Source: Thiobacillus thioparus DSM 505
GTDB lineage: Bacteria > Pseudomonadota > Gammaproteobacteria > Burkholderiales > Thiobacillaceae
Reading direction: 5' to 3'
NCBI RefSeq assembly: GCF_000373385.1
Contig: NZ_KB891316.1
Coordinates: 816,493 to 880,492, forward strand
Length of the DNA stretch: 64,000 bases
Under the pieces are notes generated by a model. The model was not told the origin of the DNA. It did no database searches and saw only the letters and a program-made list of their open reading frames with translations. Position 1 is the first letter of the stretch. Every line of letters begins with the position of its first letter. This document shows positions 5,731 through 9,716 of this stretch, one piece after another. The position numbers were made by a program, and so were the translations under genes.

Positions 5731-6594
5731 ATGACACGCGAGGCGATGACCGTCGCCAGCCTGCTCGACGACGCCACAACACGCATTGGCGCGACGCTCG
5801 GACTGGAAACGCGCGAAGCGCGGCTGGAAGCACGCGTGCTCGCCGCGTTTGCCTGGGGCGTAGCGCCTGCCTGGCTGATCGCGCACGACACCGACCTGCC
5901 GGTCCAAGCGCAAATTACGCAATTCGGGACACTGCTCGCGCGCAGGCTGGCAGGCGAGCCAATCGCCTATCTCACCGGCATGCGCGAGTTTTACGGCCGC
6001 AGCTTTCGCGTGTCGCCCGACGTCCTGATCCCTCGGCCCGATACCGAATTGTTGGTGGAACGAGCCCTGGCGCACATGCCAGACGACCTGGCAGTAACGG
6101 TCCTCGATCTCGGCACCGGCAGCGGCTGCATCGCCATCACATTGGCACTGGAACGACCGCTTGCATGCGTGACCGCCGTGGATTGCTCCGCTGCCGCGCT
6201 CGCCACCGCGACACACACCGGCAGCATCCTCAACGCACCTGTCGAGTTTCTGACCAGCGACTGGTTTTCTGCACTGACCGGACGCCGCTTCGACCTCATT
6301 GTCGGCAACCCGCCCTATATCGCCACCGCCGATCCCCACCTGGCGCGTGGGGATGTGCGATTCGAGCCGCTTTCCGCGCTCGCAGCGGGTCCGGACGGTC
6401 TGGCCGACCTGCGCCACCTGATCGCGGCGGCACCCGAACACCTCAAGCCCGGCGGCGCGCTGCTGGTGGAACATGGGTACGATCAGGCAAATGCCGTCCG
6501 AGCCTTGCTCCAAGCCACGGGATTCTCCCATCCGCAAAGCTGGCCGGATCTGTCCGGCATCTGCCGTGTCAGCGGGGGGATCTTGTCGGAATAA
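5731..6594 (+). CDS. prmC: Release factor glutamine methyltransferase
   Basis: The 287-residue SAM-dependent methyltransferase modifies the GGQ glutamine of RF1 and RF2. It has an N-terminal helical domain (about 1-90), the SAM-binding motif [12 protein letters not shown] (about 125-136) and the catalytic NPPY motif at 193-196 (VGNPPYIA). It begins three bases after prfA, its partner's gene, so product and substrate are co-expressed. The ATG at 5731 gives a normal N-terminus. Confidence 0.96.
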
Positions 6595-6737
6595 TTTACA
6601 CTCGTCCTAAGCCAGGGCACGCCCGATAGGCCGGCAGACAGCATAAGATGGGCAATTCAGGCAGGAATGACGTACATTGGTGCGATTCTTGCTGTATTTT
6701 CCGGGGACAGAATCCAGAATGATTATCGAGGCCTGAC

Positions 6738-7403
6738 ATGTCCGACCACACACCCGAAACTCCAGACACCTCGCCCGAGGCAGTGCCAAACAGCGAAATC
6801 AATCCCTCACGTCGAAGGCTGGCGGGAGCCGCACTGGGCGTATCCGCCATTTTCACGCTGGCCAGTCGCCCCGTATTGGCGACCGACCAGTGCATGTCGC
6901 CTTCAGCTGCCGTTTCCGGCAATCTGAGCCAGCATGGCACGCCTACGCTGTGTAGCGGCAGGACGCCGGGTTACTGGAAAACGCATTCAGGATCCTGGCC
7001 GTCGCCTTATCTTCCCGGGAGCTGCAACGCGGGGAATAGCTGTAACCTGGTCCAGAACTGGAAAGGCGGCACCCTGTTCCACCCGCTTTTTTCCGGCACC
7101 CAGTTCATGGCGGATCTCGATGGCAAGCCCGGCACGCCCAATACCTCGCTTTCCTTAATGCAGGTTCTGATGCTGAGCAATGGTTCCAACCCTTGGGGGC
7201 TGACCGACCCTGACAATTTGGGTGCGCATATCGTTGCCGCACTGTTGAATGCCAAAGCCGGTTTAACTCCGGTCCTCTCGGAAACGGACGTGATCGGCAT
7301 CTGGAACGAATGGGTCAGCAAAGGCTACTTCGAGCCCACAGCCAACGTACAATGGAATTCGGCGCAGATCGTGGATTACCTCAAGACCACCATGCCCGTA
7401 TGA
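6738..7403 (+). CDS. Secreted protein with twin-arginine-like signal and GYWKTH motif; candidate substrate of the HprK-related cluster
   Basis: The 221-residue product starts with a polar segment, then SRRRLAGAALG and a hydrophobic stretch ending ALASRP..LATDQ-like near residues 48-52, which resembles a Tat signal peptide. The predicted mature part has five cysteines early on and the motif TPGYWKTHSGSWP (about 80-92); GYWKxHxxxWP-type motifs occur in various exported proteins of unknown function. The gene sits upstream of PqqD-like, HprK-related and nucleotidyltransferase-like genes in the same direction, which makes it the natural candidate for the target they modify. That role is inference; no enzyme family is recognised. 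Confidence 0.75.
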   Translation: MSDHTPETPDTSPEAVPNSEINPSRRRLAGAALGVSAIFTLASRPVLATDQCMSPSAAVSGNLSQHGTPTLCSGRTPGYWKTHSGSWPSPYLPGSCNAGNSCNLVQNWKGGTLFHPLFSGTQFMADLDGKPGTPNTSLSLMQVLMLSNGSNPWGLTDPDNLGAHIVAALLNAKAGLTPVLSETDVIGIWNEWVSKGYFEPTANVQWNSAQIVDYLKTTMPV

Positions 7404-7441
7404 CCTGAGCTTTCCTCCAATACGCTTCCCGTCAAACACGA

Positions 7442-7696
7442 TTGGCACGTTTTCAGATCAAATCCTTTGAACAGGAAGCTGTTGTATTCGATACGGCATC
7501 CGGCGACACACACTATCTCGCTCCGTTCAACGTAACGCTGTTCCAGCTGGTCCAGGACAATCCGGGCATGACTTTGGACGAATTGCATGGCACCCTGGCT
7601 TCCCGGCTATCACTCGAGCCGGGCCCGGATCTCGTCCATCAAACGGATCAAGCGCTCGCAAGCCTGCGTCGGATCGGCCTGCTGGAAACACCATGA
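7442..7696 (+). CDS. PqqD-like protein of the HPr-rel-A type
   Basis: This 84-residue protein resembles PqqD-like peptide chaperones: an N-terminal strand pair with FDTASGDTHYLAPFNVTLFQLV, followed by helices and a C-terminal RRIGLLE segment. PqqD proteins bind a substrate peptide and present it to a modifying enzyme. I associate this clade with the HprK-related kinase A (HPr-rel-A) system. It starts with TTG at 7442; an in-frame stop at 7406 leaves no ATG upstream. Its stop overlaps the kinase start by four bases, so the two are translationally coupled. Confidence 0.78.
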   Translation: MARFQIKSFEQEAVVFDTASGDTHYLAPFNVTLFQLVQDNPGMTLDELHGTLASRLSLEPGPDLVHQTDQALASLRRIGLLETP

Positions 7697-8613
7697 AACT
7701 GCTCCAGCTCTCTCCGTCCGATTTGCGGCATCAGCTCGCCGGTAATGGCGTATGGTTGCGCACCGGCCCTTTCTCGCTCCGGATCCGTTCGCGCCTGCCG
7801 CGCGTCGCCGAGGGGCTGACTGAGCTCTATGGCCAATTTGAAGTGCGCAGCGCGCACCAGGCTTTTGCGGATTTCCATGTCGAACTGAACCCCCCTTCCC
7901 GCCTGCGGCGCTGGTTCCGGCCCCAGGTCAATTTTTCCTTCGATGGCGCCCAGCCCTTCAAGCCGCTCCCGCTGGACCAGGCCTACCCCATGCTGGAATG
8001 GGGTCTGAACTGGTGCGTCTCAATGCACGCGCACCATTACCTGATCATTCATGCCGCCGTAGTAGAGAAGAATGGCCTGGCAGCCATTCTTCCGGCGCCG
8101 CCCGGCTCGGGGAAAAGCACCCTGACCGCAGGACTGGTGTTGTCGGGCTGGCGCCTGCTTTCCGACGAGCTGACCCTGATCGATCGCAGGACAGGCCTGC
8201 TCCATGCGTTGCCGCGCCCCGTCAGCCTGAAAAACCAATCGATCGATGTCATCCGCCAGTTCAGCCCTGAAGCCTTCATCAATCGCGTCTCCCACGACAC
8301 CGCCAAAGGCTCCGTTGCACACATGCGCCCTCCCCGGGACAGCGTATTGCGCCAGCATGAACCGGCCCGCCCCGGCTGGGTGATTTTTCCCAAATGGGAA
8401 GCCGGCGCCGAAACACAACTGACCCCCCGTTCCCGGGCCGAGACCTTCATGTTTCTGGCAGAGAATGCATTCAACTACAGCCATCTGGGCGCGGACGGTT
8501 TTCGCGTCGGCACCACGCTGATCGACCATGCACACTGCTACGATTTCCGCTACAGCGCATTGAGCGAGGCAGTCGCCGCTTTCGATCGCCTGGCCGAACG
8601 CCGGGCTGCGTGA
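7693..8613 (+). CDS. HprK-related kinase A
   Basis: The 306-residue protein has a P-loop APPGSGKSTLTAGL (about residues 135-148) followed by LLSDELTLIDR and RPVSLKNQSIDV, the order seen in the C-terminal domain of HPr kinase/phosphorylase. The N-terminal regulatory domain of true HprK is replaced by an unrelated 100-residue region, and no HPr gene is nearby. It therefore more likely phosphorylates another target, possibly the secreted protein upstream via the PqqD-like chaperone. It overlaps the PqqD-like gene by four bases. Family recognition is good; the substrate is unknown. Confidence 0.82.
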   Translation: MKLLQLSPSDLRHQLAGNGVWLRTGPFSLRIRSRLPRVAEGLTELYGQFEVRSAHQAFADFHVELNPPSRLRRWFRPQVNFSFDGAQPFKPLPLDQAYPMLEWGLNWCVSMHAHHYLIIHAAVVEKNGLAAILPAPPGSGKSTLTAGLVLSGWRLLSDELTLIDRRTGLLHALPRPVSLKNQSIDVIRQFSPEAFINRVSHDTAKGSVAHMRPPRDSVLRQHEPARPGWVIFPKWEAGAETQLTPRSRAETFMFLAENAFNYSHLGADGFRVGTTLIDHAHCYDFRYSALSEAVAAFDRLAERRAA

Positions 8614-8618
8614 AATTC

Positions 8619-9716
8619 ATGAAATCCAGGTCCCGCGATTTGCTCAGTTGCACCTTGCGTTCGCCCGATTCCGTCACGCGCTTTTCGATGGGCGAATGGG
8701 ACCTGCTGGTGCGGCAGGCACGGAGTGCCGGCCTGCTGGCGCGTGTTCGACACGTTCTGGCCCGACACCAGCTGACCGAAACCATCCCGGCCGTCGCACG
8801 CTGGCATTTTGATGCGGCGGCCACATTGGCCGCGAAGCAGCAACTGGCCGTGCGCTGGGAAGTGGACAAGATCCGAACCGCCTTGAAAGGTCTGGCCTTC
8901 CCCTTCATTCTCCTGAAAGGCAGCGCCTACGTCATGGCCAATCTGCCTGCGGCAAGCGGACGCCTGTTCAACGACATCGATATCCTGGTCCCGCGGGCTC
9001 AACTCGGCGCGGTCGAAGCCGCACTCATGCTTGCTGGCTGGCACCCGACCCTGCTGTCGGACTACGACCAGCGCTACTACCGCCGCTGGATGCATGAGAT
9101 CCCGCCGCTGCAACATGCCATCCGTGCCACGGTGATCGACGTGCATCACGCCATCCTGCCCGATACGGCACGTTATCACCCGGATTCCGCCACTCTGCGC
9201 AGCCGTGCCATCGCAGTGGAGGACATGCCTGGCGTCCAAGTGCTGGCGACGGAAGATCGCATCCTGCATTCGGCCACCCACGTATTTCACGACGGCGAAT
9301 TGCCGCACGGCCTGCGCGATCTGACCGACCTCGACCTGTTGCTGCGCGATGCCGCTGCCAACCCCGATTTCTGGCCGCGACTGACGGCGCGCGCCAACGA
9401 GTTGCAACTGGGCCGTTCGCTGTTCTATGCGCTGCGTTATCTACGCTATTTTCTCGATACGCCGATTCCCGACAGTGCAATCGCGGCCCTCGAGCGCGAC
9501 AAGCCACATCGCCTCACCCTCGCCCTGATGGACTGCATCTTCACACGGGTTCTCGCGCCCGACCATGCAAGCTGCGCCGACCGCTTCACGCCAGCCGCGC
9601 GTCTGGCCGCTTTCGTGCGCGCCCACTGGCTGCGCATGCCCGTGCATCTGCTGATCCCGCATCTGCTTCACAAAGCCTTCGTCAGTCCCTATCAGCGAAA
9701 CGAGAAACCAGCTTGA
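8619..9716 (+). CDS. Nucleotidyltransferase-family protein of the HprK-related cluster
   Basis: The 365-residue protein has FILLKGSAY followed by GRLFNDIDILV (about 90-130), the pattern of a nucleotidyltransferase fold with a D-x-D metal pair, as in the uncharacterised nucleotidyltransferase family (PF14907). The remainder is helical with HVFHDGELPHGLRDLTDLDLLL. ATG at 8619 is chosen; GTG at 8610, overlapping the kinase stop, is equally possible, and neither has a clear ribosome binding site. Its position directly after the kinase gene ties it to the same modification system, where it could transfer a nucleotide or phosphosugar; that is inference. Confidence 0.75.
   Translation: MKSRSRDLLSCTLRSPDSVTRFSMGEWDLLVRQARSAGLLARVRHVLARHQLTETIPAVARWHFDAAATLAAKQQLAVRWEVDKIRTALKGLAFPFILLKGSAYVMANLPAASGRLFNDIDILVPRAQLGAVEAALMLAGWHPTLLSDYDQRYYRRWMHEIPPLQHAIRATVIDVHHAILPDTARYHPDSATLRSRAIAVEDMPGVQVLATEDRILHSATHVFHDGELPHGLRDLTDLDLLLRDAAANPDFWPRLTARANELQLGRSLFYALRYLRYFLDTPIPDSAIAALERDKPHRLTLALMDCIFTRVLAPDHASCADRFTPAARLAAFVRAHWLRMPVHLLIPHLLHKAFVSPYQRNEKPA

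Follow-up and report, generated by a model that had tools for sequence, protein, structure and literature searches.

A proteobacterial four-gene cassette with an HprK-related kinase, a linked and putatively Tat-exported partner protein and PEP-CTERM-type promoter motifs

Introduction

The closest described counterpart of the gene cassette studied here is that of the linear polyphosphorylated peptides (LPP), a system reported as restricted to Bacillota which, in the parts of its 2026 description available to us (PMC13381572), combines a discrete recognition element (RRE) for ribosomally synthesized and post-translationally modified peptides (RiPPs) with an HprK-like kinase and a nucleoside triphosphate (NTP) transferase. 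The cassette belongs to Pseudomonadota and lies in a 64,000-nucleotide stretch of the Thiobacillus thioparus DSM 505 genome (contig NZ_KB891316.1, positions 816,493 to 880,492; hereafter the window), where four genes encode a putatively exported protein (the partner), a PqqD-like RRE protein, an HprK-related kinase and a nucleotidyltransferase. Compared by enzyme kind, the two sets agree. We consider it reasonably likely that these genes form a protein-modification system which is guided by a leader and expressed together with the PEP-CTERM/exopolysaccharide matrix.

As far as those parts of the LPP paper go, further likenesses exist. In LPP precursors and window-type partners alike the N-terminus is conserved and the C-terminus highly variable, a serine lies near the LPP leader much as the invariant S56/S60/S64 do in the window's partner type, and LPP clusters often stand near polysaccharide loci. 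By analogy, the cassette would work like LPP. What sets it apart are its twin-arginine leader, its predicted folded substrate and its PrsR/sigma-54 promoter motifs. We do not file it as LPP because the window lacks the LPP leader motif YxxPxVLxHQxIxFETxxS (residues 1-51 of the window protein contain no Y or W), and neither the archaeal-type (SpI-like) signal peptidase nor the MsbA-like transporter of LPP was found among the genes scanned beside its cassette.

The phosphorylated lasso peptides are also similar. Paeninodin PadeK and pseudomycoidin PsmK/PsmN involve an HprK-like kinase with a His-Lys-Asp-Asp type site, a B1 RRE and a nucleotidyltransferase, and their modified C-terminal serine recalls the C-terminal box of the partners that we call type 2 below. 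In contrast, the macrolactam cyclase and B2 protease were not found in the scanned window flanks, and the best lasso cyclase-type match of the genome is on another contig (230 bits, cut-off 525). Nearly all complete partners, moreover, measure about 109-289 residues from the leader on, and the amidotransferase found close to some of the type 2 loci does not reach the cut-off of the lasso cyclase model.

With HprK/P, the cassette kinase shares the P-loop and the H, K and D residues of the C-terminal domain; it differs in its N-terminal half, in a score far below the HprK cut-off and in having no HPr gene nearby. With the PEP-CTERM/exosortase (XrtA) system and its PrsK/PrsR regulon, the cassette has in common the architecture of motif 1 plus sigma-54 site, and the two co-occur in genomes, whereas the partner has no PEP-CTERM tail and the enzymatic part of the cassette consists of kinase and nucleotidyltransferase. 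NCBI already names the kinase and the PqqD-like protein as an HPr-rel-A system (TIGR04352 and TIGR04353), of which both window proteins are members above cut-off. In two annotated plasmid records with the kinase and the nucleotidyltransferase, the partner gene is labelled 'hypothetical protein'; one of the two, from Vibrio, lists no PqqD. The original prediction, made from the window's letters, had held the substrate and the product to be undescribed; the NCBI names cover the kinase and PqqD, and the target had none. The combination of RRE, HprK-like kinase and NTP transferase has likewise been a known RiPP kind since LPP. As far as the openly licensed PMC literature shows, the new elements are the linked exported partner with its twin-arginine leader and either of two serine boxes, and a matrix promoter of the PrsR/sigma-54 type; among the matches listed from that literature, no paper dealt with the HPr-rel-A cassette or its target.

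Results

Gene content of the cassette

The gene order of the window is hemA-prfA-prmC-[cassette]-grxD-ntrC-ntrB, and the features of the cassette are the following:

6584..6600, + strand: PrsR-box-like motif 1, TGTCGGAATAATTTACA, read in the sequence; overlaps the end of prmC
6678..6693, + strand: sigma-54 (-24/-12) promoter-like site, TGGTGCGATTCTTGCT; 10/12 consensus positions, kept across loci
6738..7403, + strand: partner (exported protein, proposed substrate), 221 aa; type 1 member, under purifying selection
6807..6881, + strand: twin-arginine leader of the partner, S24-RRRLAGAALGVSAIFTLASRPVLA48; from the leader profile and leader nonsynonymous divergence (dN)
6903..6929, + strand: serine box S56-x3-S60-GN-x-S64, proposed modification region; from invariant serines and a shuffle control
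6969..6986, + strand: GYWKTH, residues 78-83, inside the predicted folded domain of the AlphaFold2 (AF2) model
7442..7696, + strand: PqqD-like RRE protein, HPr-rel-A system PqqD family peptide chaperone (TIGR04353); TTG start
7693..8613, + strand: HprK-related kinase A (TIGR04352; 155 kinases aligned)
8610..9716, + strand: PF14907 nucleotidyltransferase; GTG start at 8610, ATG at 8619 as alternative start

The four genes run in the same direction and the PqqD and kinase genes overlap by four bases (ATGA, 7693-7696), both as originally described. The kinase and nucleotidyltransferase genes overlap alike (GTGA, 8610-8613), provided that GTG 8610 is the start. Searches with the three profiles that the original prediction had named were all above cut-off: 412.3 bits for the kinase against TIGR04352 (HprK_rel_A; cut-off 200), 66.1 for the PqqD-like protein against TIGR04353 (PqqD_rel_X; 35) and 191 for the nucleotidyltransferase against PF14907 (31). 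Its reading of a non-HprK N-terminus was also borne out, since the true HprK model TIGR00679 gave the kinase 15.3 bits (cut-off 240) and matched residues 117-166 alone. It had further placed no HPr or phosphotransferase system (PTS) gene nearby; this holds for HPr, whose sole match in the genome lies about 105 kb before the window start, and the search did not extend to other PTS genes.

In the alignment of 155 full kinases (146 distinct below 98%, 82 clusters at 70%), H120, K141, D158, E159, K180, T203, K205, G206 and N261 are invariant, as are K103-G104, D122, D124 and D177 in 72 aligned rows of the nucleotidyltransferase. Pol-beta-type nucleotidyltransferases carry a GS/KG motif, a D-x-D and a third D. 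The product of the fourth gene has all of these with a matching fold: the closest folds to its AF2 model (predicted local distance difference test, pLDDT, 95) are Pol-beta-type nucleotidyltransferases, e.g. ANT(2''). Both enzymes keep their catalytic residues. A PDB sequence search returned no relatives of the nucleotidyltransferase, and for the kinase only a lysozyme match (E 0.75), which was discarded as chance. Scanning the exported protein of the window with Pfam and NCBIfam profiles gave no family match. All six flanking window genes that were scanned are housekeeping genes, and no peptidase, cyclase or transporter was found among them.

Linkage of the partner to the kinase

The four-gene cassette was found in many proteobacteria. 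Of 398 genomes sampled from the window's phylum, 61 have a kinase above the cut-off, as do 50 of the 300 sampled from its order. In 36 of these 50, a protein matched by profile A1 (29 rows) adjoins the kinase by coordinates; in the remaining 14, the leader profile and reading reveal a short twin-arginine-leader protein beside the cassette whose mature part looks unlike that of the window. A partner is therefore present in 50/50 kinase genomes of the order sample. Three of 44 order-sample loci (labelled L; genomes G) escape the leader profile, namely L026 and L027, which A1 matches, and L132, which was called by eye. A1 matches 39 genomes, and only in G067, G108 and G184 do the matches not adjoin a kinase. 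Those three consist of the GYWK domain alone, leaderless and inside giant open frames (1046-1597 residues), and G088 has an extra match of this kind besides its kinase-adjacent one.

At a threshold of at least 8 bits, the leader profile gave 144 matches among 10,437 six-frame open reading frames (ORFs) from 163 sources, many of which overlap each other and many of which lie near a kinase; all 144 are within 2.6 kb of a kinase, with 0 elsewhere. It was positive in 142/158 kinase loci, a recall that is partly circular because the seeds were taken from the same loci. Among the 16 misses, eight have a leader by eye, three are truncated by a contig end (L070, L086, L097) and five are without one.

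Leader and serine boxes of the partner

The leader (SRRRx...LTLASRPVLA and variants) is constant in the partners, and most also carry one of two serine boxes. Type 1, to which the window partner belongs, has S-x3-S-x3-S within 48 residues past the leader; type 2 has [CATS][WFYA]xS[LFVIM] within the last 45 residues. Type 1 is found in 78/141 partners and type 2 in 47/141, with both in one, while 483 other ORFs show the two patterns three and eight times, respectively. When the mature parts were shuffled 200 times, the 79 observed type 1 boxes compared with a mean of 5.3 (maximum 14), the 48 type 2 boxes with 6.5 (maximum 15), and the strict C-terminal form C[WFY]xS[LFVIM], present in 40/141 partners, with 0.2 (maximum 3). 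S56, S60 and S64 are invariant in alignments A1 and A2 (60 rows), and the other invariant residues of A1 are R25, R26, S43, C52, C72 and W87. On a FastTree phylogeny of 124 kinases, which excludes 17 Thiobacillus rows, a single change separates types 1 and 2 over the 108 rows that bear one of these labels; counting the 16 other rows as a third group raises the number to 14. Partner type partly correlates with taxonomy, yet both types are present in the window's order.

Tat (twin-arginine translocation) signals have an S-R-R-x-F/L type motif ahead of a hydrophobic stretch. In the partner, R25 and R26 are invariant, and the genome encodes TatC (241 bits, cut-off 132.7). The AF2 model has high pLDDT from about residue 71, which suggests a folded domain. 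The original prediction had singled out the motif GYWKTH, which lies within this domain, and proposed checking whether the protein carrying it is always present. The leader-bearing partner passed that check in the order sample, whereas GYWKTH itself occurs in 3/141 distinct partners (GYWK in 31/141) and was ruled out as a signature of the system, the domain being found also in giant frames of G108 and G184, which have no kinase above cut-off; the leader and serine box take its place. The GYWK(N/T)H domain recurs in giant open frames L143-L146 (G088, G067, G108 and G184). Those that were scanned, L145 and L146 from genomes without a kinase above cut-off, carry DUF7507 and DUF11 repeats, and the domain appears to be an unnamed surface-protein-like module.

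Signs of substrate recognition

Pairwise identity in 32 loci of the Thiobacillus group has a median of 84% for the leader, 36% for the mature part, 50% for PqqD, 80% for the kinase and 74% for the nucleotidyltransferase. Two substrate subfamilies, A and B (18 and 12 loci), have between-group medians of 31% in the mature part, 80% in the leader and 79% in the kinase; swapping of subfamilies among Thiobacillus was unsupported, as each gene tree shows one A/B switch. In nine close pairs, leader dN is 0 to 0.04 with synonymous divergence (dS) of up to 0.9, and dN/dS stays under 0.35 in all genes and all pairs, pointing to purifying selection. Partial Mantel tests on 68 type 1 loci, whose significance is overstated for related sequences and in which the nucleotidyltransferase serves as internal control, related the distance of the mature part, given the kinase, to that of PqqD (r=0.43, p=0.001), weakly to that of the leader (r=0.10, p=0.012) and not to that of the nucleotidyltransferase (r=0.04, p=0.19). 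In addition, two natural fusions were detected, each in one open frame: kinase-nucleotidyltransferase (L166:1444-3564) and PqqD-kinase (L142:2663-3991).

Promoter motifs and exosortase context

According to Haft 2006 (PMC1569441), 99/167 proteobacterial PEP-CTERM genes are preceded by a 17-nt motif ending in TTTACA and, 32-92 nt further on (mean 62.8), a sigma-54 site; PrsR is predicted there as the activator. The promoter motifs of the window, which had not been foreseen in the original prediction, fit this regulon architecture, with motif 1, a 77-nt spacer inside that range, the -24/-12 motif and then the partner start at 6738. The exact pattern TGTCN7TTTACA has 10 sites in the genome, the window's included (reversed pattern, 1). 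The other nine make up eight places, six of which precede a gene with a PEP-CTERM-like C-terminus (by eye); at one of these six (L237), the sigma-54 site scored just 6/12. The remaining two places precede a GGDEF-like ORF (by eye) and an unidentified ORF. By thresholds of our own, the motif pair is present in 63/76 type 1 and 9/15 other loci with enough upstream sequence, with 0 on the reverse strand. The genome encodes PrsR (TIGR02915, 773.6 bits vs 502.6) and an exosortase (TIGR02602, 266 bits vs 105.6). A PEP-CTERM gene has been reported as RpoN-dependent, in a context of biofilm or floc formation, in the parts seen of PMC9850573.

As a separate observation, the GGDEF-like place (L236, G000:C1:927400-931500) has a PrsR box and sigma-54 site before an ORF whose C-terminus resembles a GGDEF diguanylate cyclase by eye, hinting at cyclic di-GMP control inside the same regulon.

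The link to exosortase was equally unforeseen. In the order sample, an exosortase at E<=1e-10 occurs in 48/50 kinase genomes and 62/250 others. With at least 200 bits, an XrtA-type score and a threshold of our own placed where scores drop from 212 to 185 bits, the counts are 47/50 and 25/250 (Fisher p 1e-32). Because genomes are not independent, we also give the count by genus: 24/24 kinase genera vs 9/110 others (p 2e-19). The cassette probably serves the exopolysaccharide matrix.

By coordinate count, 15 genomes of the phylum have an amidotransferase-like match within about 5 kb of the kinase, all under the lasso cyclase cut-off. A lasso-type cyclase as fifth component was rejected: the two amidotransferases scanned, from L136 and L139 of order genomes, are weak against the lasso cyclase model (90 and 72 bits, cut-off 525), their best model is the exosortase-system amidotransferase (242 and 201 bits, under its cut-off of 817), and they are read as exopolysaccharide-locus genes. 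Several distant type 2 loci (the L203-L216 set) have two recurrent glycosyltransferase-like families (by eye) upstream and an amidotransferase nearby, a layout that recalls LPP and paeninodin clusters in capsule loci. Recurrent neighbours in loci other than the window's were grouped by sequence, and not all were named.

Discussion

Proposed mechanism

The gene content, linkage, conservation of leader and serines, covariation and promoter motifs described above were observed directly; the chemical steps, binding, export route and matrix role that follow are what we infer for a leader-guided modification system. PrsR and RpoN would turn the cassette on together with the PEP-CTERM genes, and the exported protein would be synthesised with its twin-arginine leader. 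The PqqD-like RRE would bind the leader together with a portion of the variable mature region, and would deliver the protein to the HprK-like kinase, which would phosphorylate a serine, in type 1 partners such as the window's in the S56/S60/S64 box by the leader and in type 2 partners in the C-terminal CWTSF-like box. The nucleotidyltransferase would cap that phosphate with a second group, either nucleotidyl or sugar(-phosphate), and the modified, folded protein would exit via Tat, shed its leader and join the cell surface or matrix. Presentation of the partner to the kinase and nucleotidyltransferase, the role proposed for it in the original prediction, is supported by co-conservation, near-zero leader dN, serine boxes that track the kinase clade, PqqD covariation and the fusions. 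As for precedents, the available parts of the sources report that LppK phosphorylates core Ser3 with one to four phosphates (PMC13381572) and that pseudomycoidin PsmN adds a hexose to phospho-Ser (PMC9266682), the latter a precedent for the capping step.

Several results weigh against this scheme. Among 149 kinase loci (nine duplicates dropped), PqqD was detected in 134, the nucleotidyltransferase in 135, the partner in 141 and all four in 119. The original prediction would have failed if kinase and chaperone regularly lacked the secreted protein or if the four genes were not co-conserved, and at these counts it survives. The 15 loci without detected PqqD comprise two cut at the contig start, four that are also partnerless and nine that have a partner (L094-L096, L174, L175, L177-L180); therefore either the RRE step does not apply everywhere or these loci have a diverged PqqD. 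Of 14 loci without a nucleotidyltransferase in the near flank, three are cut by a contig end and 11 are type 2; longer flanks of seven revealed the gene further along in five and none in L212 and L216. No leader protein was seen in the flank of five kinase loci (L162, L163, L169, L176, L191). The motif pair is present in only 9/47 type 2 loci, 15/141 partners have neither serine box and one has both, and the serine-box patterns, like the promoter thresholds, were chosen after the sequences had been viewed. Tat use is predicted from the motif, and the modification, its donor and the localisation of the partner are likewise putative. The nucleotidyltransferase step is the weakest of the mechanism because deletion of LppN, in the parts of PMC13381572 available, led to no detectable change in LPP.

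Alternative explanations

Given the correlation of kinase and exosortase at genome level, and the amidotransferase and glycosyltransferase-like genes (the latter by eye) adjoining several distant type 2 cassettes, the partner might be a mere operon passenger co-regulated with matrix genes, while the two enzymes act elsewhere, for example on PEP-CTERM proteins, on the precursor of a polysaccharide or on a small molecule. We regard this as rather unlikely in view of the 50/50 linkage, a leader dN close to zero, a mature part tracked by PqqD and not by the nucleotidyltransferase, and a serine-box position that tracks the kinase clade. Quite unlikely, in our view, is a true small RiPP, in which processing takes off the leader, and perhaps the folded part as well, and leaves a short peptide active in signalling or competition. 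The RRE, kinase and NTP transferase do belong to the LPP RiPP core, and the partner is short with a conserved N-terminus and a variable C-terminus; the mature part, however, is a predicted folded domain shared with giant open frames, no peptidase, cyclase or transporter is among the housekeeping genes of the scanned window flanks, and the promoter carries the motifs of PEP-CTERM genes.

It is also conceivable, if very unlikely, that the kinase phosphorylates the partner and the nucleotidyltransferase separately nucleotidylylates the kinase or PqqD as a regulator. The ANT(2'')-like predicted fold, the LppN deletion without visible effect in the available parts of PMC13381572 and the absence of covariation between nucleotidyltransferase and mature part would agree with such a role, whereas the kinase-nucleotidyltransferase fusion in L166 and the PsmK/PsmN precedent of sequential action on one serine, in the parts of PMC9266682 available, argue for a common substrate.

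Returning to the leader-guided modification system, one specific version of it is that the kinase and nucleotidyltransferase join a serine of the Tat-exported protein, through a phosphodiester, to a precursor (sugar or polysaccharide) of the exopolysaccharide associated with XrtA. We rate this version as unlikely. If true, it would be a second route of protein attachment to the matrix alongside exosortase, and its cargo would be an interchangeable protein that evolves fast. More broadly, these enzymes are widespread and their NCBI names give no substrate; a target and a physiological setting are proposed for them here. Published work describes phosphopeptide chemistry guided by an RRE for Bacillota peptides and lasso peptides. 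The results suggest that it may also operate in Gram-negative bacteria and on whole folded exported proteins, where it would be tied to exosortase, to PEP-CTERM and to the formation of biofilms or flocs.

Variant loci

The arrangement of the cassette varies in a few places. In L163, the flank examined holds the kinase without PqqD, nucleotidyltransferase or leader protein, and the gene directly before the kinase is one that we take to be a PEP-CTERM/exopolysaccharide sugar transferase. The kinase at L058:6203-7126 is split over two ORFs, possibly through a frameshift, in a draft assembly. In L016, L024, L030, L031 and G129, the partner gene follows the nucleotidyltransferase instead of preceding PqqD, with the strand unchanged. 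In L206, L211, L212, L213 and L215, the kinase is followed by a further recurrent ORF that looks TPR-like by eye.

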